Assembly (NCBI GenBank): GCA_030148505.1
Contig: JASBTI010000009.1
Location: 248,001-312,000, forward strand
From: Rhodanobacter sp.
Lineage (GTDB): Bacteria > Pseudomonadota > Gammaproteobacteria > Xanthomonadales > Rhodanobacteraceae
DNA: 64,000 nt
Direction of reading: 5' to 3'
Below the pieces are notes generated by a model. That model made no database searches. It was not told the DNA's origin and was given only the letters and a program-made list of their open reading frames with translations. The position numbers and the translations under genes were made by a program. Shown piece by piece: positions 42,174 to 63,338 of this stretch (position 1 is its first letter; each line of letters opens with the position of its first letter).

Positions 42174-42313
42174 GTCATCCAGCCTGCCTTGATCAGAAAA
42201 ATCCGCACGATTGTCGCCGAAACGGGCTGCGGCTGTCTGCAGGCGGTCGCTGCGCGTCCGCCGTCCATGGCTGTCAGCGCACGCCAGCTGCCGCGTTGAT
42301 GCCTGTGACCCAT

Positions 42314-42333
42314 GGCGGGCGGTGCCCGCCCTA
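42314..42333 (-). repeat. REP-like palindrome, variant copy 4
   Basis: On the minus strand TAGGGCGGGCACCGCCCGCC, a GC-shifted version of the same element. It lies in the 289-base gap between rmlD and the xanB-type gene; nothing else was recognised in that gap. Confidence 0.6.
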
Positions 42334-42462
42334 CGCCGAAATATGGTCTGCAAGAAAGGCTGTCTCTTCCTCATGATGAGCCGGGAAGGAGCCGCCGTTG
42401 TCAGCGGTCGAGATGCCATCCCGGCTGCATGCCGTCAAACCATCGTCTCTCGAAGGCTGATT

Positions 42463-43961: not shown

Positions 43962-44863
43962 CGGGCACGCCCCTCGCGCACCAGGTTTTGCAGGTACTGG
44001 CCGTAACCGGTCTTGGCCAACGGGGCAGCCAGGCGCAACAGCTGGTCGTCGTCGATCCAGCCGTTGAGATGGGCAATCTCCTCCGGGCAGCACACCTTGA
44101 GCCCCTGCCGGTTCTCGATGGTCTCGATGTAGTTGCCCGCTTCCATCAGCGACTCGTGAGTACCGGTGTCAAGCCAGGCGAAGCCGCGACCGAGCTGTAC
44201 CAGGTGCAGCGAGTCGTCGTCGAGGTAGCAGCGGTTGAGGTCGGTGATTTCCAGTTCGCCGCGCGCCGAGGGTTTCAGCGACGCCGCGTAATCGCAGACG
44301 CGCTCGTCGTAGAAATACAGACCGGTTATCGCGTAATGGGATTTCGGGATGGCCGGCTTTTCCTCCAATCCGATCACCTTGCCGTTGCCATCGAATTCCG
44401 CTACGCCATAGCGTTCGGGGTCCTTCACCCAGTAGCCGAACACGGTCGCGCCGCGTTCACGCGCCGCGGCGCGCTTCAGCCGCTCGGTAAGGCCTACACC
44501 ATAAAAAATGTTGTCACCCAGCACCAGACAGCTCGGCTTGCCGCCGACAAAGTCGCGGCCGATGGTGAATGCCTGTGCGAGGCCGTCCGGCGAGGGCTGC
44601 ACCGCGTAACGAATGTCGATACCCCATTGCGAGCCGTCACCCAGCAGCCGCTGGAACATCTCCTGCTCGTGCGGGGTGTTGATCATCAACACTTCGCGGA
44701 CGCCGGCCAGCATCAAGGTGGCCAGCGGGTAGTAGATCATCGGTTTGTCGTACACTGCCAACAGCTGCTTACTGACCGCGCGGGTGATCGGATAAAGCCG
44801 CGTGCCGGAGCCGCCGGCCAGGATGATGCCCTTGGTGGTGTTGCCTGCGCTGTCGCTCTTCAT
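43958..44863 (-). CDS. rmlA: Glucose-1-phosphate thymidylyltransferase (RmlA)
   Basis: The 301-residue protein has [19 protein letters not shown], the dTTP and sugar-phosphate site, then [20 protein letters not shown]. Later come [29 protein letters not shown] and [14 protein letters not shown]. It starts the dTDP-rhamnose pathway. The ATG at 44863 overlaps the rmlB stop by four bases. Confidence 0.96.
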
Positions 44864-45924
44864 GATCCCAGGCGCTCCAGGCGGTAGCTGCCATCGAGCA
44901 CGCGTTGCACCCACGGCTGGTGGTCCAGATACCAGTCCACCGACTGCGCGACGCCGCTTTCGAACGTCTGCGAGGGACGCCAGCCCAGTTCGTCCTGCAA
45001 TTTGCTGGCATCGATGGCGTAACGGCGGTCATGACCGGGGCGGTCCTTCACATAGGTTATCAACGATTCGCGCGCCCGACCATCGGCCAGCGGCCGGCGC
45101 GCATCGAGCAGGGCGCAGATCATCGTCACCACGTCGATGTTGGTGCGCTCGGCGTTGCCACCGACGTTGTAGGTTTCACCTACCCGGCCCGCCTCCAACA
45201 CCCGACGGATCGCACTGCAATGGTCACCCACATACAGCCAGTCGCGGATGTTCAGGCCGTTGCCGTAGACCGGCAGCGGCTCGCCAGCCAGTGCCTTCTG
45301 GATCACCAGCGGAATCAGCTTCTCGGGAAACTGATACGGCCCGTAGTTGTTCGAGCAATTGGTGGTCAACACCGGCAGACCATAGGTGTGATGAAACGCC
45401 CGCACCAGATGGTCGGAAGCCGCCTTGGAGGCAGAGTACGGCGAGTTCGGCGCATACGGCGTCTGCTCGGTGAACTTGCCCTCGGCGCCCAGTGAGCCAT
45501 AGACCTCGTCGGTCGACACATGCAAAAAGCGGAACGCTTCCTGTGCCGCACCTTCCAGGCTGCGCCAGTAGTCGCGGGCGCCTTCCAGCAAGGCCACGGT
45601 GCCCACCACATTGGTTTGCACGAATTCGGCCGGACCGTCGATCGAGCGATCCACATGCGATTCGGCGGCGAAATTGACGATGGCGTCGGGGCGGTGTTCA
45701 GCCAGCAGCCTGACCGCCAGCGCGCGATCGCCGATATCGCCGTGCACAAACACATGCTGCGGGTTACCCTGCAGCGAAGCCAGCGTGTCCGGATTGCCGG
45801 CGTACGTCAGCTTGTCCAGATTGATCACGCGCAAGCCATCGGCCACCGCCTGCAGCACGAAATTGGCGCCGATAAAGCCGGCGCCGCCGGTGACCAGTAG
45901 CGTCTTGATACCTGGGGATGTCAT
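44860..45924 (-). CDS. rmlB: dTDP-glucose 4,6-dehydratase (RmlB)
   Basis: The 354-residue dehydratase has the NAD site [17 protein letters not shown], then [38 protein letters not shown] and the catalytic [12 protein letters not shown]. It makes dTDP-4-keto-6-deoxy-glucose. It is the first gene of the rmlBACD operon; all four genes overlap by four bases, a tightly coupled set. Confidence 0.97.
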
Positions 45925-46049
45925 CGAGTACGTCCATGAGTGCGGTGAATGAAGATCGTCCAGCCGGGCAGGCCGACTAACCTCCAATAATGCCCGTTCC
46001 CGTCGCAACCACCAAGGGCAGATGGCCAAGACGCCCTCGCCCTACCCGG

Positions 46050-46716: not shown

Positions 46717-46923
46717 GCTCTGCTAAAAGCTCATGTGGCCTTGCCTCCGAGACATGTATCCCAGCCGCCAAACCACGCCATTCCAAACGCGCCACGCCAC
46801 CGATCTGCGACCGCTGCATGAACGCAAAGCACACCCACCCGTCGGCAGCGTCCGGCAATAAAGCTAAGATGACGCACTTACACGACAAGGAGACAGCCCG
46901 CCGGGCGGGTTGTGAAAGAGCTG

Positions 46924-48093
46924 ATGACCACCGGGAAGAAACCCAAGCAACACGGACTCGGCACCCGCGCGATCCATGCCGGACAATCCCCCGATCCCTC
47001 CACCGGCGCCATCATGACGCCGATCTACGCCACCTCCACCTACGTGCAGGAGAGTCCCGGCAAGCACAAGGGCTACGAGTACTCGCGCAGCCAGAATCCC
47101 ACACGGATGGCCTACGAACGTTGCGTGGCGGACCTGGAAGGCGGCGTTGCCGGCTTTGCTTTCGCCTCGGGTCTGGCCGCCGCCGCGACCGTGCTGGACC
47201 TGCTCGATTCGGGCAGTCACGTGATCGCGATGGACGACTTGTACGGTGGCAGCTATCGCCTGTTCGAAAAGGTGCGCCGCCGTTCCGCCGGGCTGGACTT
47301 CAGCTTTATCGATCTCAACGACGGCAAGGCGCTCAAGGCGGCGTTGAAACCCAATACCCGGATGATCTGGGCCGAAACCCCGACTAACCCGATGCTCAAG
47401 CTGGTCGACCTGGCCAAAGTCGCTGCGTTTGCGAAAAAGCACGGCCTGATCCTTGTGGTCGACAACACCTTCTGCTCGCCGATGATCCAGCGCCCGCTCG
47501 AATTCGGTGCCGACCTGGTGCTGCATTCGGCCACCAAGTACCTCAACGGTCACTCCGACATGGTCGGCGGCATCGTGGTGGCGGGCAGCAAAGAGCTGGC
47601 CGAGCAGATGGGCTTTCTGCAGAACTCGGTCGGCGCGGTGGCCGGCCCGTTCGATGCCTTCCTTGCCATGCGCGGCCTCAAGACCCTGCACCTGCGCATG
47701 AAGGCGCACTGCGAAAGCGCGCTGGAGCTAGCCAAGTGGCTTGAAAAACAACCTGCCGTCGAGCAGGTGATCTACCCGGGCCTCAAAAGCCATCCGCAAC
47801 ACGCCTTGGCCAAACGCCAGATGGATGGCTACGGCGGCATCATCACAATCGAGATCAAGGGCGGCCTGAAAAAGGCGAAACGCATGCTGGAGCGCTGCAA
47901 GCTGTTTGCGCTGGCCGAGTCGCTCGGCGGTGTTGAAAGCCTGATCGAACATCCCGCGATCATGACCCATGCCTCGGTTCCGGCGGCCAACCGAAAACGG
48001 CTGGGGATCAGTGACGGGTTGGTGCGGCTTTCCGTGGGCGTGGAGGATATCGCCGATTTGCGGGAAGAACTGACCCTCGCGTTGGGCAAGTGA
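46924..48093 (+). CDS. metB: Cystathionine gamma-synthase/lyase family PLP enzyme (MetB/MetC type)
   Basis: The 389-residue enzyme has GLGTRAIHAGQSPDPSTGAI, then YEYSRSQNPTRMAYERCVAD, the PLP lysine in VLHSATKYLNGHSDMVGG, and ESLGGVESLIEHPAIMTHAS. It catalyses gamma-replacement or gamma-elimination on cystathionine or O-succinylhomoserine. The GTG at 46912 is an alternative start; the ATG at 46924 has GAAAGAG upstream. In Xanthomonas a metB-type gene borders the variable LPS locus, as it does here. Confidence 0.9.
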   Translation: MTTGKKPKQHGLGTRAIHAGQSPDPSTGAIMTPIYATSTYVQESPGKHKGYEYSRSQNPTRMAYERCVADLEGGVAGFAFASGLAAAATVLDLLDSGSHVIAMDDLYGGSYRLFEKVRRRSAGLDFSFIDLNDGKALKAALKPNTRMIWAETPTNPMLKLVDLAKVAAFAKKHGLILVVDNTFCSPMIQRPLEFGADLVLHSATKYLNGHSDMVGGIVVAGSKELAEQMGFLQNSVGAVAGPFDAFLAMRGLKTLHLRMKAHCESALELAKWLEKQPAVEQVIYPGLKSHPQHALAKRQMDGYGGIITIEIKGGLKKAKRMLERCKLFALAESLGGVESLIEHPAIMTHASVPAANRKRLGISDGLVRLSVGVEDIADLREELTLALGK

Positions 48094-48148: not shown

Positions 48149-49540
48149 TTGAGCATCATCAATAGATGGCGGCGGGTGGACTTGGGCTTTGGGCTATTGC
48201 ACCTGTCAACATGGATTCGCCGACAGTCATGGCTCAGAGCGGTCTACCGTCATTTGCCGACAACATTCCGTTCCAAAATGTCCGAAACGTTGGCCGAGCG
48301 TGCGCGGGCACAGCTCAGGTTTCCTAGAACTTCGAACTGGCAAGGTCATGGGCAACAGCCAGAGTGGGCTGTGCCTGCGCCGGGGGCGGAATATGCCCAT
48401 GCCGTTGGCGTCAACATCTTTGCCTATGCCCGCGGCCAATTCGGGCTCGCCGAAGGAGCTCGTCTGTATGCGCGGGCGTTGTTGGCCGAAGGCTATCCAG
48501 TCGCCATCCACAATATCGCCATCGACGTGCCGCACGGCATGGATGACAACAGTCTGGACGCGCATATTGGCGAGGAAACGCCATACGGCGTCAACCTGAT
48601 TTTCGTCAATCCTGACTATCTGGACGAGGCCATTGCCGTCATCGGGCGCGAACGCCTGGGTAATCGTTATCTGATTGCGTGCTGGTTCTGGGAGTTGGAG
48701 GCGTTTCCGGATGCGTGGCTGCCCGGACTGGAACTCGTCGACGAAGTCATGGTTGCCACCCAGTTCATTGAAAAGGCGATCAAGCGCATCACCGACAAGC
48801 CCGTATGGTATGTCCCGTTGCCGGTCGGCGAGGCGAACGACAGCGGATTGATGCGTGCGGACTTTGGTTTGGAAGATGATGCTTTTATCTTCCTCAGCAG
48901 CTTCGACTTCAATTCCTTTTTAACGAGAAAAAATCCGCTCGCGGTAATTAGCGCGTTTCAGCTGGCCTATGCCGATGGCAGGCCTGATGTCAGGTTGCTG
49001 ATCAAATCAAGTAATGGGCATCGGTATCCAATGATGCTGCAGGAGTTGCTGGCAGCGGCGTCCGGCGATAAGCGTATCATCATCCGTGACGAGGTGATCC
49101 ACCGCAGTGACGTGCAGGCGCTGCAGCGTTGTGTTGATGCGTATGTCTCGCTGCATCGTGCTGAAGGTTTTGGTCTGGGGCTTGCCGAGTGCATGCGCTT
49201 GGGAAAGCCGGTGATCGCCACGGCCTGGTCAGGCAATATGGATTTCATGACGGATGCCAACAGCTGTCTGGTGGACTACAATCTCGTCCCTCTACATGAG
49301 GGTGAGTACCTTCATTGCGAAGGGCAGCATTGGGCAGAACCCAGCGTTTCACATGCTGCTGAGCAGATGCGTCGAATCGTTGACGATAGGAGTTTTGCGG
49401 CAAGGATAGGCGCGCGTGCTGCGCAGGACGTCCGGGACAGGCTCTCGCCCCATGTCACAGCGCAGCTAATCATTCAACGCCTTGAGGCTTTGTCGTCCTC
49501 AGCCATCGGCGATACCGCGACGACCATTTTTCATCATTGA
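48149..49540 (+). CDS. Group 1 glycosyltransferase (GT4 type)
   Basis: The 463-residue protein starts at a TTG (48149) downstream of GGGG; the nearest ATG at 48278 would cut 43 residues. N-terminal region GVNIFAYARGQFGLAEGARL resembles family GT4 acceptor-binding loops. The C-terminal SLHRAEGFGLGLAECMRLGK and PVIATAWSGNMDF contain the E-x7-E motif and nucleotide-sugar site. It opens the ABC-type O-antigen block, and 23 bases separate it from wzm. Its base composition is more AT-rich than the flanking metB, a sign of transfer. The sugar is unknown. Confidence 0.8.
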   Translation: MSIINRWRRVDLGFGLLHLSTWIRRQSWLRAVYRHLPTTFRSKMSETLAERARAQLRFPRTSNWQGHGQQPEWAVPAPGAEYAHAVGVNIFAYARGQFGLAEGARLYARALLAEGYPVAIHNIAIDVPHGMDDNSLDAHIGEETPYGVNLIFVNPDYLDEAIAVIGRERLGNRYLIACWFWELEAFPDAWLPGLELVDEVMVATQFIEKAIKRITDKPVWYVPLPVGEANDSGLMRADFGLEDDAFIFLSSFDFNSFLTRKNPLAVISAFQLAYADGRPDVRLLIKSSNGHRYPMMLQELLAAASGDKRIIIRDEVIHRSDVQALQRCVDAYVSLHRAEGFGLGLAECMRLGKPVIATAWSGNMDFMTDANSCLVDYNLVPLHEGEYLHCEGQHWAEPSVSHAAEQMRRIVDDRSFAARIGARAAQDVRDRLSPHVTAQLIIQRLEALSSSAIGDTATTIFHH

Positions 49541-49563: not shown

Positions 49564-50358
49564 ATGAAAGAGATTCTGGCGGCAATCTGGAGTTATCGCC
49601 ATTTCATCGTGTCGTCGATCAAAAACGATCTTCGCTCGCGGTTCGCGCGCAGTAAGTTGGGCGGGCTGTGGATGATCTTGCAGCCACTGGCACAGGTGGC
49701 AATTTATGCGCTCGTTTTGTCGCGCATCATGGCGGCCAAGCTACCAGGTATCAATAATCGCTACGCCTACGTTATCTACCTGATGGCAGGGATGATTGCC
49801 TGGTCATTGTTTGCCGAAGTAGTGACTCGATCGCTGACATTATTCGTCGATAATGGCAATCTCATGAAGAAGATGGCATTTCCACGGGTATGTTTGCCTA
49901 TCATTGTCGGCGGCTCATCCTTGGTGAATAACCTTCTTTTACTCGTGACGGCCATAGGTGTATTCCTCCTGATCGGTCACCCGCTCAGCCTGGCAATGCT
50001 TTGGCTCCCTCTTTTGATTGTCATCAACCTGGCTTTTGCTATCGGATTAGGGTTGATTCTTGGCATATTGAATGTTTTTGTGCGGGATGTCGCCCAGGTT
50101 ATGACGGTGGTACTTCAGCTGTTGTTTTGGCTAACCCCGATCGTCTACATGCCAAGTATTATTCCGGATCGATTGCGTTCCATATTGGAATTCAATCCGA
50201 TGATGCATATGGCTGTGGCATTTCAGGATGTCATCCTTTACGGACGCCCCCCTCCGATTCAAGGGCTGGCCATTATTGCCTTGGCGGCGATCGTACTGTT
50301 GCTGTTTTCATTGATCTTGTTCAGGCGCGCAGCGCCGGAAATGGTGGACGTACTGTGA
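49564..50358 (+). CDS. wzm: Wzm, O-antigen ABC transporter permease
   Basis: The 264-residue membrane protein has about six helices and the ABC-2 motif SKLGGLWMILQPLAQVAIYA near the N-terminus. FWLTPIVYMPSIIPDRLRSI and EFNPMMHMAVAFQDVILYG follow, typical of Wzm. It exports undecaprenyl-linked polysaccharide across the inner membrane. The ATG at 49564 has AGGAACGGG upstream; an in-frame ATG at 49537 overlaps the glycosyltransferase end. It overlaps wzt by four bases. Confidence 0.93.
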   Translation: MKEILAAIWSYRHFIVSSIKNDLRSRFARSKLGGLWMILQPLAQVAIYALVLSRIMAAKLPGINNRYAYVIYLMAGMIAWSLFAEVVTRSLTLFVDNGNLMKKMAFPRVCLPIIVGGSSLVNNLLLLVTAIGVFLLIGHPLSLAMLWLPLLIVINLAFAIGLGLILGILNVFVRDVAQVMTVVLQLLFWLTPIVYMPSIIPDRLRSILEFNPMMHMAVAFQDVILYGRPPPIQGLAIIALAAIVLLLFSLILFRRAAPEMVDVL

Positions 50359-51581
50359 GTGAATCCCTTCTTACTGTGAGTGGACTTGGCAAGGCCTTTC
50401 GCGATTATGGGTCGGAGTTGCGGCGATTTGCCTCATGGTGTGGGTTGCATGTGCAGGTAAAAGCAGAAACTTGGGTCCTGCGTGGCGTTTCATTTAATGT
50501 CGAGCATGGCGAGTCGATCGGCATTGTCGGTCAGAATGGTGCAGGCAAGAGCACGCTGCTCAAGTTGATCACGGGCACGCTCAGGGGAACCGAGGGTACC
50601 ATTGGCGTGCACGGTCGCATTGCGGCCATCCTCGAACTTGGCATGGGCTTCAGCCCCGATCTGAGTGGTCGGGCGAACGTTCGTCATACGGCCGGCTTGA
50701 TGGGCTTCTCCCATGAAGACATATCTGGTGCCATGGCAGCGATCGAGGCATTTGCAGAGATCGGTGAATATTTCGACGAACCTGTGCGGACCTATTCGAG
50801 CGGTATGCAAATGCGTATTGCGTTTGCCGTGGCAACCGCGTTCCGTCCGGACATTCTCATCGTCGACGAGGCGCTTTCCGTAGGAGATTCCTATTTTCAG
50901 CATAAGTGCTTCAAGCGGATACGTGAGTTCCGCGAACAAGGCACCAGTCTGCTGATCGTCTCGCACGATGCTGGCGCAGTACAGAGCCTGTGCGATCGTG
51001 CGCTGCTTCTGGAGAACGGCGCCCTCATTAAAGACGGCGATCCTGCGGAAGTCATGGATCTCTACAATGCGTTGATTGCGGAGCGAGAGAACAGCACGAT
51101 CACGATTTCGAACCACGCCAGCGGTCGCGTTCAGACCATTTCAGGCAGCGGTGAGGCGGTGGTTGAGACCATCATGCTCCTCAACGATTCCGAGGAGCAG
51201 GTGGAGTTTGTTGACGTTGGTCAGCCTGTGACGCTCCAAATTCAAGTGATGGCGCGAGAGGACATCCCGCGACTGGTGCTGGGCTACATGATCAAAGATA
51301 GGTTGGGACAACAGGTTTTTGGCACCAATACACACCATACGGAGCAGGTATTGGAAGAAGTGCGTGCTGGTCAACGTGTACAGTTTCGCATCAGCTTTCC
51401 GATGAATTTTGGGCAGGGAAGCTATTCGGTTTCGACGGCGCTGGTCAGCACCGATACCCATCTTGTCAATAACTACGAATGGAGGGATCTGGCGCTGGTC
51501 TTCACTGTTTCCAATATGTCACAACCGATATTTGTAGGTTCGGCCTGGGTCCCGCCTAGTATCGAGGTTTGCACTCTATGA
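50355..51581 (+). CDS. wzt: Wzt, O-antigen ABC transporter ATPase with C-terminal sugar-binding domain
   Basis: The 408-residue protein starts with GTG at 50355 inside the wzm stop (GTGA). The ATPase domain has Walker A GQNGAGKSTLL (about residues 59-69), the signature YSSGMQMRIAFAVA and Walker B ILIVDEALSVGD. From about residue 250 a beta-sandwich follows (LGYMIKDRLGQQVFGTNTHH, then FPMNFGQGSYSVSTALVST), the Wzt C-terminal domain that recognises the modified end of the finished chain. Such a domain implies that a chain cap exists and is read by the exporter. It overlaps the next gene by ATGA. Confidence 0.94.
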   Translation: MSESLLTVSGLGKAFRDYGSELRRFASWCGLHVQVKAETWVLRGVSFNVEHGESIGIVGQNGAGKSTLLKLITGTLRGTEGTIGVHGRIAAILELGMGFSPDLSGRANVRHTAGLMGFSHEDISGAMAAIEAFAEIGEYFDEPVRTYSSGMQMRIAFAVATAFRPDILIVDEALSVGDSYFQHKCFKRIREFREQGTSLLIVSHDAGAVQSLCDRALLLENGALIKDGDPAEVMDLYNALIAERENSTITISNHASGRVQTISGSGEAVVETIMLLNDSEEQVEFVDVGQPVTLQIQVMAREDIPRLVLGYMIKDRLGQQVFGTNTHHTEQVLEEVRAGQRVQFRISFPMNFGQGSYSVSTALVSTDTHLVNNYEWRDLALVFTVSNMSQPIFVGSAWVPPSIEVCTL

Positions 51582-53500
51582 GTTTTACCTCCTACGCCCA
51601 GAACTACGAGGATGTAATGCTCATTCGCGCGCTGCGCGGAATTGAGCACGGTTTCTATATCGACGTGGGTGCTCAGGATCCAGTTGATGACTCGGTCACC
51701 AAGGCATTTTACGAGTTAGGTTGGCGCGGTATCAACATCGAGCCGGTCACACACTGGTTCCACCGGCTGGTTTCCGATCGTCCGCATGACATCAATCTGC
51801 AGATCGCGGTATCTGACAGTCCAGGCCAACTGCATCTGTTCGAGGTGGAGGCTAGCGGACTGTCAACGACCGACCCCGAATTTGCGGCACGACATACGCA
51901 GGCTGGACATCAGATTCGAGAGTCGGATGTGGAATGCGTGACTCTGGACGAGATTTGCGATACGTATTGGTCTGGTGAAGTTCACTTTCTCAAGATTGAC
52001 TGCGAGGGAGGTGAGACCGCAGCGTTGCGCGGCCTTTCGCTCGATCGGATACGGCCGTGGATTATCCTGATTGAGGCTACCGAACCCAACAGTCAGAAGC
52101 CCGCGTACGCGGAATGGGAGCCGCTGCTAACAGGGCGCGGTTATCATTTCGTCTATGAAGATGGGTTGAACCGCTTTTACGTGGCCGATGAGCGCAGCGA
52201 ACTGGATTCAGCGTTTTCGCATCCACCGAATGTTTTTGATTATTTCGTGCGGGCCTCTGAGGCCGCGGCGCGCGCTCACTTGCAGGTGGCGGAGGGCGAT
52301 TTGTTGGCGTTGCGGGACGCGCAGCGCTTGGCACAGCTCGAATCGGAATGCGAACAGCTGCGAATCGGTGCCGAATTCCTTAACAGTGAGAACGAGCGAC
52401 GAGAGGCGGCTTTGGTTGAGCATCGACGGTTGCGGGATGAGGCCGCCGAGCGCGAAGCGCAGGGCCTGTCGCGCATGCAGGCGGAATGCGAACAGCTGCG
52501 GGTCCGTGTCGAATTCCTCAACAGTGAGAACGAGCGACGGGAAGCGGCTTTGGTTGAGCATCGACGGTTGGTGGACGAGGCGGCCGAGCGCGAAGCGCGG
52601 AGTGCGGAGCGCGTGCAGGTTGAACGAGAGCAATGGCGGGCCGAGAACGAACGTCGCGAGGAAATTTCGCGGAAAATGGTGAGTGACGCACACGAACGCA
52701 TCAGTGAATTGAGTGAGCGGTTGGATAGAGAACGCACGGTTCGGCGCATTCTGGGACGGCAATGTCGTTCGGCACAGGAGAGCGTTGAGCTGCTGCGTCA
52801 ACAACTTGACTCGGTCGAACTTGAGCGAAGCAGTTTCAATGAGCAGCTGAAGACTTTGCAGGCAGAACGGTTGGACCTCTACGAGCGTGTCGCCGAACTC
52901 ATTGACTCAGTCGCGAATTCGCATTCCACTCACAGCGAATTTTCCCGCGATCTTCATAACGCACAGGCTGTGATCGGCGAGAAGGTTGCCGCTTGCGAGC
53001 AACTACAGGCAAAGTTGCATGAGCTGCAGGCTAGCCATGCTCATGCTACCGATGAATTGCTGCACCTACGCGCTGAACTGACCCGCAGCCAGGAACATGG
53101 CAAAACTCTGCAATCGCTCCTGATCGAGGTCCAGGCGACCCGATCATGGCGCATGACAGCGCCGTTGCGTAAGCTTCGTCGTGGCTATCGCCAGGGTGCG
53201 CAAGCTAGTCGTTTTGCGATGGTTAAAATTGTTAGAATAGCGGTGCGCACATTGGCCCGTGTGCCTGGTATGCGTCTGATTGGGCGACGTATTGTCGGGC
53301 GAAGCCCACAAATCAAGAAAAGATTGGTTACGCTGGGCTGGGGCCAGCCGACGGCTTCCTCAGTTCCCCGATCGGCAATTGGGTCCGCAACGGCGGAGTC
53401 CAATGGTGGCCAAGAGATGCTCTCACGCTCGGCGCGGGAAGCGTTGGTGCTGTTGAAGGAATTTCGTTCAGGGCAGGAAGGATCCAGGAAGGATCCCTGA
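51578..53500 (+). CDS. FkbM-family methyltransferase fused to a long coiled coil
   Basis: The 640-residue protein has three parts. Residues about 10-215 are an FkbM methyltransferase (EHGFYIDVGAQDPVDDSVTK, VHFLKIDCEGGETAALRGLS). Residues about 230-520 are a charged, heptad-like coiled coil (AECEQLRVRVEFLNSENERR, EEISRKMVSDAHERISELSE). The tail contains SWRMTAPLRKLRRGYRQGA, an amphipathic basic segment common at the ends of envelope glycosyltransferases. It directly overlaps wzt and precedes a multi-domain polymerase, the position of WbdD in O8/O9a loci. By analogy it may methylate the chain end and measure length. Confidence 0.85.
   Translation: MSFTSYAQNYEDVMLIRALRGIEHGFYIDVGAQDPVDDSVTKAFYELGWRGINIEPVTHWFHRLVSDRPHDINLQIAVSDSPGQLHLFEVEASGLSTTDPEFAARHTQAGHQIRESDVECVTLDEICDTYWSGEVHFLKIDCEGGETAALRGLSLDRIRPWIILIEATEPNSQKPAYAEWEPLLTGRGYHFVYEDGLNRFYVADERSELDSAFSHPPNVFDYFVRASEAAARAHLQVAEGDLLALRDAQRLAQLESECEQLRIGAEFLNSENERREAALVEHRRLRDEAAEREAQGLSRMQAECEQLRVRVEFLNSENERREAALVEHRRLVDEAAEREARSAERVQVEREQWRAENERREEISRKMVSDAHERISELSERLDRERTVRRILGRQCRSAQESVELLRQQLDSVELERSSFNEQLKTLQAERLDLYERVAELIDSVANSHSTHSEFSRDLHNAQAVIGEKVAACEQLQAKLHELQASHAHATDELLHLRAELTRSQEHGKTLQSLLIEVQATRSWRMTAPLRKLRRGYRQGAQASRFAMVKIVRIAVRTLARVPGMRLIGRRIVGRSPQIKKRLVTLGWGQPTASSVPRSAIGSATAESNGGQEMLSRSAREALVLLKEFRSGQEGSRKDP
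52344..52619 (+). repeat. Tandem 138-base repeat inside the coiled coil
   Basis: Unit 1 begins at 52344 and unit 2 at 52482, a 138-base (46-residue) step. Both read ECEQLR, then EFLNSENERREAALVEHRRL and DEAAEREA. At the DNA level long blocks are identical, such as AACAGTGAGAACGAGCGACG, so the duplication looks recent. The frame is kept. Confidence 0.85.
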
Positions 53501-53519
53501 AAAGGATTGGAATACATTC

Positions 53520-56500
53520 ATGCGTCTTGTATTGGATTTACAGGCTTGCCAAACGTCTGGCAGCCGCTTTCGTGGAATTGGACGCTATTCGGCGGCGCTG
53601 GCGGTTGCCATGCTGCGACAGGCGGGTGAGCATGAGTGCTGGATCGCACTCAATGGTGCGTTTCCTGCATCCGTCGACGCGGTTCGCAAGGACTTCGCAA
53701 ATCTCGTTGCACCCGAGCGCATCCGCGTCTGGAACCCGATCGGCGCTGTAGAAGCGTGTGATCCCGCAAATACGGGGCGTCGTCGTCTGGCTGAGGTTCT
53801 GCGAGAGGACTTCATGCGCAAATTGCAGCCCGATATGCTGCACGTAAGCAGTTTGTTCGAAGGACTTGAGGGAGATGCGGTCACCAGCATTGGCGGTGCC
53901 AGATCACCCACATCTGCGGTTACGCTGTATGACCTCATTCCTCTCATTTATCAGGATATCTATCTGGCCAACCCGGTCGTGCGTGACTGGTACCAGGACA
54001 AGCTGGCCTCGTTGCATCGGGCGCGCCTCTTGCTGGCGATCTCGGAAAGTTCGCGACGCGAGGCGATCGATTACCTCCAGCTTCCGGCAGCCAATGTCGT
54101 GAACATATCCTCGGCGGCCGACCCGATGTTTCGACCGCTGCAGCTGTCAGCGGATGAAGAGCTGGCCCTGCGCTCCAAGTTTGGCCTGCATGGCTCTTTC
54201 GTGATGTATACAGGTGGCATTGACCACCGCAAGAATATCGATGGCTTGATTCGAGCGTTTGCCTTGCTGCCATCGGCTGTTCGCAAGCAACATCAGCTGG
54301 CGATCGTCTGCTCTGTACAAGCAGAGGAGCGTTCGCGGCTGGAGTTGCTCGCTCGCAGTATCGGCTTGCGCCCCGGTCAATTGGTCATGACGGGATTCGT
54401 CACGGATCAGGAGCTGGTTGCTCTATGCAATCTTTGCAAGCTCTTCGTGTTTCCGTCATGGCATGAAGGTTTCGGTCTGCCGGCACTGGAAGCCATGGCC
54501 TGTGGCGCAGCAGTCATCGCCGCCAACACTTCCAGCCTTCCAGAGGTGATCGGGCGCGAGGATGCGCTGTTCGACCCGCGCAATGACAGCCGCATGGCAG
54601 CCGCCATGTATCAATCGTTGACCGACGAGGCCTTTCGTCTTGATCTGGCTGCGCACGGCCCATCGCAGGCGAGTCTTTTCTCGTGGCAGGAGAGCGCACG
54701 GCGCGCGCTCGGTGCGATGGAGGCGGATTTCGAGTCGCGCCGTGCTCGTCGCACGGCGGTATCGGTCGAGAACGTCAAGCCGCGATTGGCCTTTGTTTCA
54801 CCTTTGCCGCCCGAGCGCAGCGGCATCGCCGATTACAGCGCGGAGTTGTTGCCTGCTTTGGCGAAGTATTACGAGATCGAGGTGATTACCGATCAGCAAG
54901 CCATTGAAGGCGATACCGTGGCTTCTCGCTTCCCCAAGCGCGGTGTAGATTGGTTTGCTGCGAACGCGGGACGTTATCAGCGGGTGCTGTATCAGTTCGG
55001 CAATTCGCCATTTCATGGGCATATGTTCAAGCTGGCGCGTGACATTCCGGGTGTCATCGTCCTTCATGACTTTTATCTGGGGCATATCCTTCGACATCTC
55101 GAGGTCAGCGACGAGATACCGTCGCCATGGGATCAGGCGTTGTTCCAGTCGCATGGTTACCAGGCGCTGGCTGAGCGTTATCGATTCGGTGATTCGGAAG
55201 CCGTCGTTTCCAGATATCCCTGCAGCGGGAGTGTCATCGCCGCAGCGAACGGCGTCATCGTGCACTCCGAGTTCTGCGAGACCCTGGTTTCGACCTGGTA
55301 CGGTGGATCGGCCACGAAGCACATACGCCACGTCCCCCAGCTGCGGCGATCGGTGAGAAGCACGACTGACCGGGCAGGCTCACGAATGCAGTTGGGTATA
55401 GCCGATGACGCGTTTGTTATTGCGACGTTCGGTATCATTAACCCCTACAAGCAGGCGCACCGACTGATCGATGCTTGGGCTTCGTCCGAGCTGGCCGGAC
55501 GGGAGCATAGTGTGCTGCTGCTGGTCGGTGAGGTGCATGACTCGGAGTACGCGGAAATGCTCAAGAGGCGGATTGCCGCCGCAGGGATTGGCCCGACGGC
55601 GATTCGTATCACCGGATTTGTCGAAAGCGCCGACTATGAGCGCTATCTCCAAGCCACCGATGTAGCGGTGCAGCTGCGTACCGATACTCGTGGCGAAACA
55701 TCGCGCGCCGTGCTGGACTGCCTCGCCTATGGGGTACCTGTGGTCATCAACGCGCATGGCTCAGCGGCGGAGTTGCCCGATGGCGTGGTGCTCAAGATCG
55801 CTGACGAATTTACCGATGTCGAGCTTTCGGCTGGCCTCGAAGCTTTACACCATGAAACAGACCTGCGCGAAGAGTTGTCCCGGGCGGGGATCCAGCACGT
55901 CGCCACCGTGCTCTCCCCGAAGCATGTGGCCGAGTTGTATCGGGATGCCATCGAGCACTTTCAACAGACTGGGCCTCGCACGAGTTTAGCTCGCTTGGTC
56001 AGGCATGTAGCCGATGCAACAACCGACTTGGTGCTGAGTGAGTCGCAGTTGCGTGAGATGGCAGCTACCGTGGCGCGATACCGGCCGATTGGATCCATCC
56101 AGAAGCAACTGCTAGTGGATATATCAGTGCTGGTGATTACGGACGCGAAGAGCGGTATCCAGCGCGTGGTCCGCAGCGTTCTCGGTGAACTGCTGGCCAA
56201 CCCGCCTGCGGGTTACCGGATCGAGCCGGTTTACGCGGACGGATCAGGCAGCTATCGCTACGCCCGCCGCTTCACATGTACTTTCCTCGGGATTCCGCAT
56301 GCGCCATTCCCCGACGAGCCGATCGAGGCAGGCGCAGGCGACATCTTTCTGGGTCTCGACCTGGCGGCGCATATCGTCCCAGCCATGGCCGGCTATTTCC
56401 AAGAGATGCGCAAGGCCGGGGTACGGGTGCACTTCGTGCTCTACGATCTGTTGCCTGCGCTGCAACCGCAATGGTTTCCATCCGATTTGGTGGGTCACCT

Positions 56501-57692
56501 GCAACGCTGGTATACCGCCATTGGCGAGCTATCGGACAGCGTGATTGCCATATCCAAGGCGGTGGCGGCCGAATACGGTGAATGGCTCGACATCAACCAA
56601 CCGGGACGCAGCGATTCATTGCGCATCGATTATTTCCATCTGGGCGCGGATATCGAATCCAGTACTCCGACGCAGGGCATTGACGAAAAGACCCGTGGCG
56701 AGATCGCCTCTCTGACTGATCGTCCATCATGGCTCATGGTCGGCACGGTGGAGCCACGCAAGGGGCATGCGCAGGCTTTGGATGCATTCGAGCAGCTTTG
56801 GGCTGAGGGTCTCGACGTCGTCCTGGTTGTGGTCGGGAAGCGAGGTTGGCGAGTGGATGAGCTAGCCAACCGCTTAAGTTCGCATGTCGAGCTTGGGCGT
56901 CGTTTGTTCTGGTTCGAAGGAATCAGCGATGAAGCACTCGAAGCCGTCTACGAAAATGTGTCCATGCTGTTGGCCGCATCCATGGGGGAAGGTTTTGGCT
57001 TGCCCTTGGTGGAGGCTGCACGTCACCGCCTGCCGGTGCTGGCGCGAGATATACCCGTATTTCGTGAAGTGGCCGGAGCTGGTGCGATGTACTTCGTCGC
57101 CGATTCCGCAGATATGCTCGCCGATGCATTACGCGATGCGATGGAGCGACTGGGTAGTGGCCGATGCCCCGATCCACAGGTGATTGAAGTGCTTTCCTGG
57201 GCCCAGAGCACAAAGCGTTTGCTGAGAGCCATCGAGGGTGATTCCGAGGTTCTCACGTGGCAGCTGGGCAAACGCCTCCTGTTTCCAGCAGGTCATGCGC
57301 GGCTGCACTCCCAGGTAGGATCGCTCGACGATGATCTGTTGTCGACTACGTCGATGGACGGATATCTGGTATTTGGCCCCTATGTGGCATTGCCAGCAGG
57401 TAGTTACACCTTGCGTCTACTGGGTAGTGTGGAGAGTCCGTCCCAGGCGAACTTCGATGTGGTTGCCGAACGCGGTCAGAAGGAATTGATACCGGCTTCC
57501 ACTCTTGAAAACGAGGTGCAACCTGGCGTTATTGCGGAGCGAGAGCTTTATCTGGACCGAGCTGTCCAGGATATGGAGGTGCGGCTATGGGTGGATGCCG
57601 GGGCTCAATTGCATTTCAGGGCGCTTGAGATACAGGTCACGGATGTCTCGATCACCCCACTGCCGACGCCAAGCCTGGAAAGCATGATTTGA
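53520..57692 (+). CDS. Giant three-domain glycosyltransferase with C-terminal beta-sandwich
   Basis: The 1390-residue protein has three GT4-like domains. The first (1 to about 395) contains VMYTGGIDHRKNIDGLIRAF and SWHEGFGLPALEAMACG. The second (about 420-830) starts PRLAFVSPLPPERSGIADYS and holds TRGETSRAVLDCLAYGVPVV. The third (about 860-1245) has MVGTVEPRKGHAQALDAFEQ and MGEGFGLPLVEAARHR. A beta-sandwich follows (about 1258-1390: GYLVFGPYVALPAGSYTLRL). It starts 20 bases after the methyltransferase gene. It probably builds the repeat unit of the O-chain, as WbdA-type polymerases do. Second-domain catalytic residues are less typical (no E-x7-E in EGFG form). Confidence 0.85.
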   Translation: MRLVLDLQACQTSGSRFRGIGRYSAALAVAMLRQAGEHECWIALNGAFPASVDAVRKDFANLVAPERIRVWNPIGAVEACDPANTGRRRLAEVLREDFMRKLQPDMLHVSSLFEGLEGDAVTSIGGARSPTSAVTLYDLIPLIYQDIYLANPVVRDWYQDKLASLHRARLLLAISESSRREAIDYLQLPAANVVNISSAADPMFRPLQLSADEELALRSKFGLHGSFVMYTGGIDHRKNIDGLIRAFALLPSAVRKQHQLAIVCSVQAEERSRLELLARSIGLRPGQLVMTGFVTDQELVALCNLCKLFVFPSWHEGFGLPALEAMACGAAVIAANTSSLPEVIGREDALFDPRNDSRMAAAMYQSLTDEAFRLDLAAHGPSQASLFSWQESARRALGAMEADFESRRARRTAVSVENVKPRLAFVSPLPPERSGIADYSAELLPALAKYYEIEVITDQQAIEGDTVASRFPKRGVDWFAANAGRYQRVLYQFGNSPFHGHMFKLARDIPGVIVLHDFYLGHILRHLEVSDEIPSPWDQALFQSHGYQALAERYRFGDSEAVVSRYPCSGSVIAAANGVIVHSEFCETLVSTWYGGSATKHIRHVPQLRRSVRSTTDRAGSRMQLGIADDAFVIATFGIINPYKQAHRLIDAWASSELAGREHSVLLLVGEVHDSEYAEMLKRRIAAAGIGPTAIRITGFVESADYERYLQATDVAVQLRTDTRGETSRAVLDCLAYGVPVVINAHGSAAELPDGVVLKIADEFTDVELSAGLEALHHETDLREELSRAGIQHVATVLSPKHVAELYRDAIEHFQQTGPRTSLARLVRHVADATTDLVLSESQLREMAATVARYRPIGSIQKQLLVDISVLVITDAKSGIQRVVRSVLGELLANPPAGYRIEPVYADGSGSYRYARRFTCTFLGIPHAPFPDEPIEAGAGDIFLGLDLAAHIVPAMAGYFQEMRKAGVRVHFVLYDLLPALQPQWFPSDLVGHLQRWYTAIGELSDSVIAISKAVAAEYGEWLDINQPGRSDSLRIDYFHLGADIESSTPTQGIDEKTRGEIASLTDRPSWLMVGTVEPRKGHAQALDAFEQLWAEGLDVVLVVVGKRGWRVDELANRLSSHVELGRRLFWFEGISDEALEAVYENVSMLLAASMGEGFGLPLVEAARHRLPVLARDIPVFREVAGAGAMYFVADSADMLADALRDAMERLGSGRCPDPQVIEVLSWAQSTKRLLRAIEGDSEVLTWQLGKRLLFPAGHARLHSQVGSLDDDLLSTTSMDGYLVFGPYVALPAGSYTLRLLGSVESPSQANFDVVAERGQKELIPASTLENEVQPGVIAERELYLDRAVQDMEVRLWVDAGAQLHFRALEIQVTDVSITPLPTPSLESMI

Positions 57693-57881: not shown

Positions 57882-58417
57882 ATGACTTCATCCATCAAGC
57901 GCTTGGCCACGTTGGCACCGTTCTTCTTGCTGGCTGCCTTGTCGGCATGCGGCAGTAACAAAAACGGCACGAATGCTACCGCAAGTAATAGCCATCCCGC
58001 GATGACGGAGGTCGCCCACATCAGGGCTCCGACAGTCGAGTGGGTTCGCTCGTGGGCACCAAGGACCCTGCCAGAGGCCTCATAAGCGACCAGCGCGGTG
58101 GCGTACTCATGTACGGGCCGTACATCGCGATTCAGCCTGGCAAATACCAGGTCGTCATTCGCGGTCAGTACGTTGCTCCTGCACCAACGGCATCCATGAC
58201 GCTCGATGTGGTGCATGACAAAGGCAAAACGACCCTCTTCACGACATTGATTGTCAAGCCGGAAGATCAAGCGCAAGGTGTTCTGGCTACACTGGATTTC
58301 GAAGCCTCCAATGGAGCGGCGGATCTGGAGGTGCGCGCCATTGTTCCCGCCAGGCGGATGCTACGATCAGCGGTTATAGCATCTACAAATTTCAGTGAAG
58401 CAATACATTGGCGATGA
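57882..58417 (+). pseudogene. Lipoprotein with a GT-linked beta-sandwich domain, frameshifted
   Basis: The first frame has a lipoprotein signal (APFFLLAALSACGSNKNG, lipobox LSAC) and runs to HIRAPTVEWVRS; it then goes out of phase and stops at 58085. The frame one base back continues LVGTKDPARGLISDQRGGVL, then MYGPYIAIQPGKYQVVIRGQ, and ends at 58417. Restoring one base near 58050 gives about 178 residues. This domain aligns with the C-terminal beta-sandwich of the preceding glycosyltransferase (GPYxA.. G.Y, DVV, LEVR). It may be a real mutation, a sequencing error or a programmed shift. Confidence 0.75.
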
Positions 58418-58436: not shown

Positions 58437-59471
<1,035 letters not shown>

Positions 59472-59472
59472 G

Positions 59473-60375
59473 GTGGGGCGTCCACGCGCACTTTTGACCG
59501 GTCGGAACGGGTTCACCGGCAGGTATGTCGGCGCCGAACTGGAGGCGGCCGGTTACGAAGTCGTCGGCCTGAGTGACCGCCAGGAGCCTGTCGACACTGG
59601 CTCGATCACCGTCAACCTGCTTGATCGCGAGGCGGTGCTTGCGGCGGTGGCCGCGGTTCAGCCCGAAGTGGTGCTGCATCTGGCGGCGATTTCGTTCGTT
59701 GCCCACGGTGATGTGGATGAGATCTACCGTGTCAACGTCGTCGGCACCCGCAACCTGCTCGATGCATTGGCAAAGCTTGTACAGAAGCCAAGGATTGTGG
59801 TGCTCGCCAGCAGCGCCAACGTCTACGGCAACGCCGAGGTCGAGCCGATCACCGAGGACACCCCGCCGGCGCCGGCGAACGACTACGCAGTGAGCAAGCT
59901 GTCCATGGAGTACATGGCCAGATTATGGATGGATCGGCTGCCCATCGTGATCACTCGGCCGTTCAACTACACCGGCGTGGGCCAGTCAGAACAGTTCCTG
60001 ATTCCCAAGATTGTCAGCCATTTTCGGCGCGGCGAGAAGGTGATCGAGCTAGGGAACACCGGTGTGGCACGCGACTTTGGCGATGTCCGGGATGTTGCGA
60101 GGGCGTACGCGGCGATTGTGCAGGCATCCCCGGTAGGCGAGACCCTGAATATTTGTACTGGCGTTGGGCACTCGCTGGGTGATGTGCTCGACATGATGGC
60201 CACCATTGCTGGGTATCCGATTGCGGTACGTGTCAATCCAGCTTTTGTAAGAAGCAAGGAAGTGGCGCGGCTCGTTGGATCGCCCGCCAGGCTTGGCGAG
60301 CTTGCGGGGTGGCATGCGCAGCACACGCTACCGCAGACGCTTGCTTGGCTTTATGCAAGCACGGTGGGGCGATGA
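59473..60375 (+). CDS. rmd: GDP-6-deoxy-4-keto-D-mannose reductase (Rmd type)
   Basis: The 300-residue reductase begins at a GTG (59473) one base after the gmd stop; an earlier TTG would overlap gmd. It has ALLTGRNGFTGRYVGAELEA, then LLDREAVLAAVAAVQPEV, HLAAISFVAHGDVDEIY and YAVSKLSMEYMARLW. It resembles Rmd, which makes GDP-D-rhamnose, more than fucose synthase. The neighbouring gmd and ABC export suggest a D-rhamnose-containing chain. Stereochemistry is inferred. Confidence 0.85.
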   Translation: MGRPRALLTGRNGFTGRYVGAELEAAGYEVVGLSDRQEPVDTGSITVNLLDREAVLAAVAAVQPEVVLHLAAISFVAHGDVDEIYRVNVVGTRNLLDALAKLVQKPRIVVLASSANVYGNAEVEPITEDTPPAPANDYAVSKLSMEYMARLWMDRLPIVITRPFNYTGVGQSEQFLIPKIVSHFRRGEKVIELGNTGVARDFGDVRDVARAYAAIVQASPVGETLNICTGVGHSLGDVLDMMATIAGYPIAVRVNPAFVRSKEVARLVGSPARLGELAGWHAQHTLPQTLAWLYASTVGR

Positions 60376-60445: not shown

Positions 60446-61786
60446 ATGAAGTGTTTCAAGGCGTACGACATTCGCGGACGAGTCCCGGACGAATTGAACG
60501 AAGATATTGCGTACTGCATTGGACGTGCATTCGCCGAGCGTCTGCGGCCTGATGAAGTTGTTGTTGGCCGCGATGTCAGGTTGGACAGTCCTCTACTTGC
60601 TGCCGCGGTCACACGTGGCCTGACGGATGCCGGCGTTTCGGTGATTGATATCGGGCTGTGCGGTACCGAGGAGGTTTATTTCCAGACCGCGAATCGTGGT
60701 GTTGGCGGCGGCATCATGGTAACGGCCAGCCACAATCCCATGGACTACAACGGCATGAAGCTGGTGCGCGAAGGTTCACGACCAGTCAGTGGCGATACGG
60801 GCCTGCGTGATATCGAGACGTTGGCCGAGTCAGGCAAGTTCTCATCTGCGCAAAGGAAGGGGGTTGTGCTTGTGGATGCCGACAAGTCGGCCTATATCGA
60901 GCATCTGTTGGGTTACGTCGATCGCGCAGTCTTGCGTCCCCTAAAGATTGTTGTCAACGCAGGCAACGGCGGTGCCGGGCTAGTGATTGACCAACTCGAT
61001 GAATATCTTCCGTTCGAGTTTATTCGCATCCACCACGAGCCAAATGGCAGTTTTCCGCACGGAATACCCAATCCGCTATTGCCAGAAAATCGTGCCGCCA
61101 CGGCTGAGGCGGTTCGCGCGCACGGTGCGGATTTTGGTATTGCCTGGGATGGCGATTTCGACCGCTGCTTTTTCTTCGACGCCGAAGGACAATTCATCGA
61201 AGGCTACTATCTGGTCGGCCTGCTAGCGGCTCAGCTGTTGGAGAAGTCGCCGGGCGGGAAGATCGTCCACGATCCGCGATTGACCTGGAACACAATGGAC
61301 ATGGTCACGGCTGCGGGTGGGGTGCCAGTTCTCAGCAAGACCGGCCATGCCTTTATCAAGGAACGCATGCGGTTGGAGGATGCCGCCTACGGCGGCGAGA
61401 TGAGCGCCCACCATTACTTCCGGGACTTCGCCTATTGCGATTCCGGCATGATTCCTTGGTTGTTGATTGCCGAGCGCATCAGCAGCATGGGCGTGCCGCT
61501 GGCACAGATGGTGGAGCGGCGCATCGCCGCCTATCCATGTAGCGGCGAGATTAACTTCAAGGTGGGTGACGCGGCTGCCGTGGTGCAGCGACTGCATGAT
61601 CACTATGCGGCGCAGGCGATCATGGAAGATCGGACCGACGGTCTGACGCTCGAGTTTGAGCAGTGGCGCTTCAATGTGCGGTCTTCCAACACAGAGCCGC
61701 TGCTCCGACTGAACATCGAAACACGCGCAGACACAGCACTGCTGCATTCCAGGACGTTGGAGTTGCGTAGTCTAATTGTCGGTTGA
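60446..61786 (+). CDS. manB: Phosphomannomutase (ManB/CpsG type)
   Basis: The 446-residue mutase has [20 protein letters not shown], then the phosphoserine loop [19 protein letters not shown] and the metal loop [19 protein letters not shown]. The substrate loop is [19 protein letters not shown], followed by [18 protein letters not shown]. It supplies mannose-1-phosphate for GDP-mannose. It lies 70 bases after rmd on the same strand, so gmd-rmd-manB likely form one unit. Confidence 0.95.
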
Positions 61787-61827: not shown

Positions 61828-62415
61828 TCACTTTGCGGGGAGGGTAGCCAGTGGCTTGCCGTCCGTGCCACAGACCTTGCTGACATCGTTTACATTGCAG
61901 CTCAGGAATGGGCCTACAACCATCGGCTTGGTACCCAAAGAATCGAACCATGCAACTTGCTCCTGTACCGGCAACAACTGCACGCTGTAGTTGAGCGTCT
62001 TGTCAATCGGCAGCAAAATAGTCACTTGCGCGGAGCTGCCTGGAGCGATGACCGGAATATTGGCCCTAGCAAGGTCATTTTCGATGACCTTGCCGTCCGC
62101 GGCCACGCTATGCGCGCCCAAGTGCACGGGATATTTGCCTGTCGAACTTAAAGCCACTTTGCCGCTATTGCCCAAGTCAACTGTCACAACGATGTCTTTG
62201 CCGTCTGGGCTGACCGACGCCAAACCCTGCTGCGAAAGCTGGACGTTCACCTGATCCGCGGTCAGTGCCTGATTCATGCCTGAGGCCGCAGCAGGTGATG
62301 GCGCGGTCTCAGGAGCGGCCTGCTGCGTGCTGGCGGTATCCTGGCCAGAGCTGCATGCTGCGAGCGTAAGGGCTGAGCAAATGGCCAAGCCAAGCAGCGA
62401 AAAACGTATTTGCAT
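61828..62415 (-). CDS. Lipoprotein of unknown function
   Basis: The 195-residue product has a lipoprotein signal (LLGLAICSALTLAACSSGQD, with the modified cysteine in LAAC). A Ser/Ala/Pro-rich linker follows, then a probable beta domain (GKDIVVTVDLGNSGKVALSS, then IPVIAPGSSAQVTILLPIDK). The C-terminal part includes CNVNDVSKVCGTDGKPLA, with two cysteines that could pair. It lies within the polysaccharide locus on the opposite strand. No named family is recognised; a role with surface sugars is only suggested by position. Confidence 0.75.
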   Translation of the reverse strand: MQIRFSLLGLAICSALTLAACSSGQDTASTQQAAPETAPSPAAASGMNQALTADQVNVQLSQQGLASVSPDGKDIVVTVDLGNSGKVALSSTGKYPVHLGAHSVAADGKVIENDLARANIPVIAPGSSAQVTILLPIDKTLNYSVQLLPVQEQVAWFDSLGTKPMVVGPFLSCNVNDVSKVCGTDGKPLATLPAK

Positions 62416-63204: not shown

Positions 63205-63338
63205 TAATCATCATCCCCTCGATGGCAACTTATCTGAATTTAAGTGTAAGCATATAAGTTTACATCTGTCTTCTTTCATGAATAGATTGACTATAAAAAT
63301 GCATTTTTGAAGCTATGGTCGCCGCGTGATGTCTATTT

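Follow-up and report, generated by a model that had tools for sequence, protein, structure and literature searches.

The presence of an FkbM-family methyltransferase gene directly behind wzt raises the question of which enzyme ends the O chain in this locus, and of what sets the length of that chain. The window, a 64,000-nucleotide stretch of a Rhodanobacter sp. contig, probably carries an ABC-transporter-dependent export system for a D-rhamnan O antigen; unless stated otherwise, the genes given here lie on its forward strand. The probable operon starts with a single-domain GT1-type glycosyltransferase (48149..49540, Glycos_transf_1 4.6e-10), homologues of which stand before wzm in L002-L006. 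It is followed by wzm for the membrane subunit of the transporter (49564..50358, ABC2_membrane 2.3e-24) and by wzt (50355..51581), which has a GTG start codon, overlaps wzm by 4 nt and encodes an ATPase with a C-terminal cap-binding domain (ABC_tran 3.3e-21, Wzt_C 8.2e-37). The methyltransferase gene (51578..53500, 640 aa) overlaps wzt by another 4 nt (ATGA), and its product is our proposed chain terminator and ruler. The proposed polymerase, a GT1-type glycosyltransferase of 1390 aa, is encoded from 19 nt further 3' (53520..57692). The earlier note had described wzm, wzt, a methyltransferase joined to a coil of about 290 residues and a three-domain glycosyltransferase, with overlaps or 20-base spacing; profile matches, the two 4-nt overlaps and the 19-nt gap bear this out, and coordinates and coil length were likewise correct. 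It mentions neither gmd, rmd and pmm further downstream nor the duplication in the coil nor the C-terminal domain of the glycosyltransferase, all described below.

A WbdA-type polymerase is a single polypeptide with one glycosyltransferase module per linkage type. The 1390-aa protein contains three Glycos_transf_1 stretches (8.3e-67), and its C-terminal tail, a beta-sandwich in the predicted structure, is carbohydrate-binding-module-like as judged from a model with pLDDT 90 and a best Foldseek match to the CBM6 entry 5fui (1.0e-4). Downstream of the tightly packed genes follow gmd for GDP-mannose 4,6-dehydratase (58437..59471, TIGR01472 9.7e-143, above cut-off), an rmd-like reductase gene as the proposed source of GDP-D-rhamnose (59440..60375) and a phosphomannomutase-type gene for GDP-mannose supply (60446..61786, PGM_PMM domains I-IV, CpsG model 2.5e-197, below cut-off). 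Note that the reductase matches the GDP-6-deoxy-D-lyxo-4-hexulose reductase 2pk3 at 4.6e-43, while its top PDB match is instead a 'putative epimerase' (4lw8, 2.8e-90), not a characterised Rmd. The window has both gmd and rmd, as do 10 of 12 further distinct FkbM loci from Rhodanobacter, Frateuria, Dyella and genomes of the same family. Genes for dTDP-L-rhamnose are also located nearby, so that the sugar of the polymer is uncertain.

The methyltransferase-coil protein joins a terminator-type domain to an extended coiled coil. Its head (residues 1-223, 51578..52246) belongs to the FkbM methyltransferases (PF05050), as evidenced by a full-length FkbM/Methyltransf_21 match in Pfam (1.5e-25, residues 29-191, profile positions 1-173 of 173), by the NCBIfam model fkbM_fam (4.2e-17) and by residues G31, E55, D141, E143, G144 and E146, which are invariant in 20 sequences and comprise SAM-site and KIDxEGxE positions. 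Residues 226-520 (52253..53137, about 295 residues) form the proposed ruler. A COILS-type score, with matrix and parameters entered by hand, called coiled coil at 204 of the 305 residues of 226-530, whereas 60 shuffles of this region averaged 46 such residues and reached at most 117. The structure prediction that the earlier note had suggested, an AlphaFold2 run on a single chain with an alignment of 20 sequences, yielded a confident head (blocks mostly around 90) and helices at 226-307, 328-447, 452-520, 522-588 and 617-635 with moderate confidence (blocks mostly 65-84, below 50 at 306-311 and 314-321, pTM 0.42). The remainder (53141..53500) comprises the motif SWRMTAPLR (residues 523-531), a helical region and a C-terminal helix with LSxxAR, as seen in the alignment and the predicted helices, and we propose it as the putative docking end for membrane and polymerase. 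The arrangement of head, coil and SWR motif is common to the 20 aligned homologues, in which SWRxTAPLR is nearly invariant.

In E. coli O8/O9a the gene order is wzm-wzt-wbdD-wbdA. According to two published accounts, these strains and Klebsiella O3/O5 combine a cap-reading Wzt, a methyltransferase on a coiled coil and a multi-domain polymerase (PMC11231755, PMC5082667), as is the case here; the window differs from them in its FkbM head, in the lack of a kinase domain match (Pfam, E 0.01), in gmd-rmd, in a coil of about 295 residues with tandem repeats and in the CBM-like tail of the polymerase. Insertions and truncations in the WbdD coil, some 200 Å in length, alter O9a chain length (PMC5082667), and a C-terminal amphipathic helix and a polymerase recruitment site of WbdD are described in PMC11231755. 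Terminator heads on coiled coils have already been presented as widespread (PMC11231755, PMC10629545). Other catalytic heads occur on such terminators in Klebsiella (PMC11231755): O7 ORF6 is a methyltransferase-kinase-coil-glycosyltransferase with a CgnL-like methyltransferase plus kinase as its head, and O4 ORF7 joins a new Kdo transferase to a coil, where the window has FkbM. The word FkbM is absent from the main text of PMC11231755, and no FkbM enzyme named as a chain terminator was found in the literature searched, the 2019 survey by Mann et al. lying outside that search.

Judged from domain profiles and a PDB search, the protein is not a member of the WbdD family: no PDB entry matches its sequence at E up to 0.1, and WbdD is absent from the best 50 of 845 Foldseek rows (E up to 10). 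Whole-model fold matches are weak, with none at 0.001 and a mycobacterial MeT1 as the best at 3.3e-3. The earlier note had called the catalytic domain unrelated to that of WbdD; the head is indeed from another methyltransferase family, but since those best 50 rows are mostly methyltransferases, unrelatedness was overstated. The claim that the locus reaches the same solution as WbdD/WbdA is supported as far as the layout, the recurring gene order, a Wzt resembling a solved 3-O-methyl binder and a variable coil between conserved ends are concerned. Should this reading hold, the WbdD head would be exchangeable for a methyltransferase of another family, with coil and tail remaining comparable.

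The nature of the cap can be approached from the Wzt side. The closest solved Wzt proteins are those in the Aquifex aeolicus Wzm-Wzt structures (PDB 8dku, 8dl0, 6o14), with 8dku as the best match (4.2e-81); the isolated Aquifex cap-binding domain 8dky matches at 1.5e-15 and, with the Wzt_C profile, identifies a cap-binding Wzt of the type known from coiled-coil terminator systems. The Aquifex domain binds 3-O-methyl-D-mannose, not mannose, and the D-rhamnan/mannan O antigen carries 3-O-methyl-Rha and -Man caps (PMC9445017). At the ten pocket sites the window reads YMNSAVDHWV, and the hydrophobic methyl pocket with its Trp362 lid is present. Trp362, Ala348, Asn313 and His355 are common to both proteins, whereas Ile299 is changed to Tyr, Leu300 to Met, Thr346 to Ser and His350 to Val; the latter residue contacts O-2 in Aquifex Wzt and is His in none of the 27 FkbM-linked domains. 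These 27 stem from 26 loci, two of them from L022, and include L140, where FkbM is 1.8 kb from wzt, and L038, with only an FkbM fragment at a contig end. They retain Trp362 and Asn313 in 27/27 and Ala348 and His355 in 26/27 cases, while the 40 same-family loci without FkbM show 27, 30, 16 and 8, respectively; in other loci of the class, Trp362 is found in 15 of the 37 (among 54 fetched) that gave an alignable domain. The cap is thus probably a 3-O-methyl group, and if so, pocket residues of Wzt help in predicting the cap from sequence.

The pocket signature was also compared with the presence of gmd and rmd in 77 non-FkbM loci (table 8, 6, 1, 62; Fisher 1.2e-6). This value is not independent evidence because the signature follows clades, and the idea that the two track each other independently of descent was dropped, an independent-pairs test being without power. 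Short copies of L074-L078 entered this comparison, so that absence of gmd/rmd is overcounted among the FkbM loci, where 8 of 27 counted as positive. Five same-family loci (L147, L152, L155, L164, L166) encode coil proteins with a Methyltransf_23 domain and share with the window the signature YMNSA..HW and Gmd and Rmd-like matches, the latter weak (142-154 bits) in L155, L164 and L166. Unlike in the window, the methyltransferase is of another family and located at the C-terminal end; in L147 and L152 its gene stands 3.6-5.0 kb away from wzt, and in the other three the two are adjacent.

From the genes, their domains and order, the coil prediction, the pocket residues and the repeats we infer substrates, cap position, polymerase docking and length control as follows, a reading to which we assign a probability of roughly 0.7. 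Pmm, Gmd and Rmd would provide GDP-D-rhamnose, and polymerisation by the three-domain glycosyltransferase would take place at the membrane, where the FkbM-coil protein would have its base. As a single continuous helix with a rise of 1.5 Å per residue, the 295 residues could place the head at a distance of up to about 44 nm. Once a chain had grown far enough to meet the head, its terminal sugar would receive a methyl group, most probably on O-3, and elongation would cease; the C-terminal domain of Wzt would then bind the methyl cap and Wzm-Wzt export the chain. Coil length would set chain length and evolve by in-frame tandem duplication, often of whole heptads.

Such a duplication is seen in the window, where two copies of a 138-nt unit (46 codons), 83% identical, lie in frame inside the coil (52312..52587). 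Tandem repeats occur in the coil DNA of 18 of 44 FkbM relatives, and in 12 of these 18 the unit is a multiple of 21 nt, that is, of whole heptads. Composition does not account for them: codon shuffles (20 repeats) gave arrays in 0-2 of 44 regions, and shuffles preserving codons per heptad position in 0-1. In genes of the same loci, arrays with a score of at least 50 are found in 2/141 (L030, L031) and at score 40 in 15/141; FkbM heads have none in 47 at score 40. The rod appears to lengthen by duplication of short DNA repeats, and it is these repeats that are new here, the coiled-coil terminator strategy itself being already published as widespread. If this holds, they constitute natural length variants of the ruler, the model becomes testable without engineering, and O-chain length should be predictable from repeat number. 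More tentatively, terminator rulers of several families might be length-tunable repeats, the coil gene acquiring and losing heptad-sized DNA repeats so frequently that O-chain length would differ between close strains as a repeat-number trait, with an FkbM enzyme supplying the cap in the present case.

The same data bear on an unlikely alternative, in which capping of the chain end by the head and recognition of the cap by Wzt take place as proposed, but the coil merely serves oligomerisation or membrane anchoring and chain length follows from enzyme stoichiometry or export rate. The distance from head to SWR motif ranges from 46 to 298 residues among relatives, and a variation of more than sixfold would suit a simple anchor; yet both ends are conserved, the repeats are mostly whole heptads and so keep the rod, and ruler behaviour is on record for WbdD (PMC5082667). 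The 54 class loci contain 8 further ORFs with SWRxTxPLR-like motifs, which also fits an anchor, as does the distribution of the coil. A predicted coil of at least 28 residues is present in 21 of 24 distinct FkbM loci adjacent to Wzt_C, window included, and in 16 of 20 non-adjacent ones, counts based on 68 FkbM rows after removal of 17 repeat copies and of 7 rows that scored below 200 bits, with L002, L015, L027 and L033 ending at contig ends and the coil of L006 interrupted by an assembly gap. A coil specific to Wzt_C neighbours is rejected by these numbers; the coil characterises the FkbM subfamily as such and does not prove that the protein is coupled to a transporter which reads caps.

Occurrence of FkbM-coil proteins away from Wzt_C is also in line with a quite improbable reading, by which the target of the protein is an internal or side-chain residue or some different glycan, and the cap comes from another enzyme, such as the Methyltransf_23 protein encoded at 62503-63204. 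FkbM is a broad O-methyltransferase family, and this second methyltransferase gene is 9 kb away; however, it is encoded on the opposite strand, with 0 residues of its product predicted as coil, while the FkbM-coil gene overlaps wzt and adjoins Wzt_C in all 24 loci of the adjacent group. That the locus is degenerate or silent and O-antigen production lost is hardly credible: a neighbouring lipoprotein-like gene appears frame-broken (57882-58085 versus 57992-58414), but the reading frames of the core genes are open, with overlaps of 4 nt, and the residues invariant in relatives are retained.

Returning to the proposed FkbM-capped ruler, record titles show the order Wzt-FkbM-glycosyltransferase again in other Proteobacteria, in Syntrophobacteraceae and in one cyanobacterium. 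The class sample holds one other genome, G242, with FkbM directly adjoining Wzt_C among the matches listed; its frame has 288 aa and no predicted coil. FkbM as the usual head near Wzt_C was rejected, as none of 20 hand-picked proteins scanned contained it at E 0.001. Seventeen of them belonged to other methyltransferase families, two were of sulfotransferase type (L180 weakly, 3.1e-6) and one was Wzz-like (L116); heads adjoining other Wzt_C genes comprise Methyltransf_11/12/23/24/25 and sulfotransferase domains. The SWR motif is found in 5 of 10 proteins of one scanned set near Wzt_C (L082, L084, L088, L095, L111). As to the repeats, 4 of 13 arrays in one scan lie mostly outside the predicted coil (L169, L171, L175, L185), and the 46 codons of the window's unit do not divide evenly into heptads, although 5x7+11 would preserve the heptad phase.

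Comparison of the window with its relatives gives good support to an O-antigen system of the known terminator-ruler kind, here with an FkbM head whose chemistry is putative. As passages of two papers already term the terminator strategy widespread (PMC11231755, PMC10629545), its novelty is limited. In the window's own genome, which is 3.68 Mb in size and Rhodanobacter-like, a cystathionine gamma-synthase/lyase-type gene (46912-48093) is followed on the + strand by genes for a GT1 glycosyltransferase, Wzm, Wzt, the FkbM-coil protein (51578-53500) and a 1390-aa glycosyltransferase (53520-57692), and then by gmd, rmd and pmm. The wzm/wzt and wzt/FkbM junctions are 4-nt overlaps, and 19 nt separate the FkbM-coil gene from the large glycosyltransferase gene. 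A metB match was also present in 30 of 40 fetched loci from the same family that have Wzt_C, the cap-binding domain (CBD) of Wzt, without FkbM (L147-L186, picked from the stronger Wzt_C matches), so that this is an established O-antigen site whose contents vary. At one further place (L139:7429-15975, the same as L072) the order is metB-FkbM-GT-gmd-rmd with the metB match immediately upstream of FkbM; no Wzt match was found in the fetched 19 kb, and the transporter seems to have been lost or relocated.

The nearest named relatives of the FkbM-coil protein are from Rhodanobacter and Frateuria. Its FkbM domain is full, comprising residues 1-223, and is modelled by AF2 with high confidence, the helices with moderate confidence. 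In an alignment of 20 homologues from Rhodanobacteraceae-type genomes, other Proteobacteria, Syntrophobacteraceae and one cyanobacterium, the head is conserved, with G31, E55, D141, E143, G144 and E146 invariant, and the coil is the variable part. The C-terminal end consists of S-x-SWRxTxPLR, a helical region and a final helix with LSxxAR; note that one row (L009) contains an assembly gap and another (L014) ends shortly past the SWR motif. The distance from head to motif, which was found in 23 of 44 distinct FkbM regions (47 minus three duplicate loci), ranges from 46 to 298 residues, the window being the longest.

The most useful new lead is the heptad repeats. The window coil contains an in-frame tandem duplication of 138 nt, and three units, likewise spaced by 46 residues, occur in a relative (L003); the unit is single in L004, L005 and L072, and L005 additionally carries eight 21-nt (7-codon) repeats. 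In L006 (10744-11074) 5.7 copies of a 21-nt repeat with 100% match adjoin an assembly gap, a run of N, and the L002 contig ends (4090) within the coil, past the first unit; both fit assembly breaks caused by repeats. Arrays with a TRF score of at least 50 occurred in 18 of the 44 FkbM regions, 14 of these belonging to the 24 that adjoin Wzt_C. Their period was divisible by 3 in 17/18 and a multiple of 21 nt in 12 of those 17 (P 2e-7 against 1/7). Codon-shuffled controls yielded arrays in 0-2 regions, the FkbM heads in 0/47, and neighbouring Wzm/Wzt/GT genes, at the same score, in 2/141. Other coil proteins near Wzt_C bore arrays in 13/43 cases, lying mostly outside the predicted coil in four of the 13, and the best period was a multiple of 21 in 8/13. 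One such protein (L177:7753-11523, +), whose gene overlaps the Wzt_C gene, has within its coil 17.8 copies of a 21-nt repeat with 76% match. We take repeats to be a general growth mode of such coils, in which FkbM is not special. Long coiled coils frequently grow by duplication, and the interest of the repeats thus lies in their putative link to chain length.

The closest solved relative of the window Wzt is the Aquifex transporter. According to passages of PMC9445017, its CBD recognises 3-O-methyl-D-mannose but does not bind mannose, and Trp362 forms the lid of the methyl pocket, LPS binding being essentially abolished in W362L. The residues at ten sites of the pocket are Y-M-N-S-A-V-D-H-W-V in the window, compared with I-L-N-T-A-H-M-H-W-V in Aquifex. 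Trp362 and Asn313 are present in all 27 FkbM-linked domains, versus 27 and 30, respectively, of 40 same-family domains without FkbM, and His355 in 26/27 versus 8/40. Five loci of the same family (L147, L152, L155, L164 and L166) have the same Wzt pocket signature as the FkbM type together with a different methyltransferase protein, a coil with a C-terminal Methyltransf_23 domain and, in four of the five, an N-terminal DUF4214, so that the terminator layout is apparently turned round. All five contain Gmd and Rmd-like matches. Such a pattern would be expected if two methyltransferase families produce the same cap; common descent of the CBDs may account for it as well.

Wzt_C was found in 58/274 class genomes and 101/117 family genomes, and FkbM at E <1e-80 in 12/117 family genomes, the window's own counted, with two further weak matches. 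Among 54 fetched Wzt_C places out of 62 outside the window in the class sample (eight below cut-off were left out), none adjoined a strong FkbM and one a weak FkbM (37 bits, L119 = G242); the PF05050 result, among the matches listed, agrees with this. FkbM is thus a minority head. The other heads scanned were of the Methyltransf_11, 12, 23, 24 and 25 types and sulfotransferases. Two coil proteins near Wzt_C, one with a Sulfotransfer_2 head (7e-25) and a GT1 domain (L101:6151-8460, -), the other with a weak Sulfotransfer_3 head (3.1e-6; L180:5853-7259, -), are candidates for capping glycan chains with sulfate.

Elsewhere in the genome, on contigs other than that of the window, there are three matches to Wzy_C and a single weak one to Wzz. 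The large glycosyltransferase, the proposed polymerase, comprises three GT1-type modules and ends in a beta-sandwich (pLDDT 90). In Foldseek this domain is matched best by carbohydrate-binding modules (5fui CBM6, 1.0e-4; 7zvo; 6sgf), the 37 matches at 0.001 also containing non-CBM jelly rolls. Gmd scored above its NCBIfam cut-off, and the top PDB match of the rmd-like reductase is a 'putative epimerase', followed by GDP-6-deoxy-D-lyxo-4-hexulose reductase and GDP-6-deoxy-D-mannose reductase. Beside the O-antigen locus, ManC-type and rmlD, rmlC, rmlA and rmlB-type genes (40761-46029, -) would supply GDP-mannose and dTDP-L-rhamnose, and L-rhamnose may therefore be used too.

Directly past the cluster, on the opposite strand, lie a second methyltransferase (Methyltransf_23), for which no coil is predicted, and a glycosyltransferase (62503-63815, -). 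The product of a further small gene (61828-62415, -) carries a signal of lipoprotein type (LAAC) and had no Pfam match at 1e-5. A second signal of this type, a signal peptide with the end LSAC, is encoded at 57882-58085 (+). Overlapping it in a different frame is a separate copy of the CBM-like tail of the polymerase (57992-58414, +; 30% identity over 106 aa), and the pair looks like a frame-broken gene.
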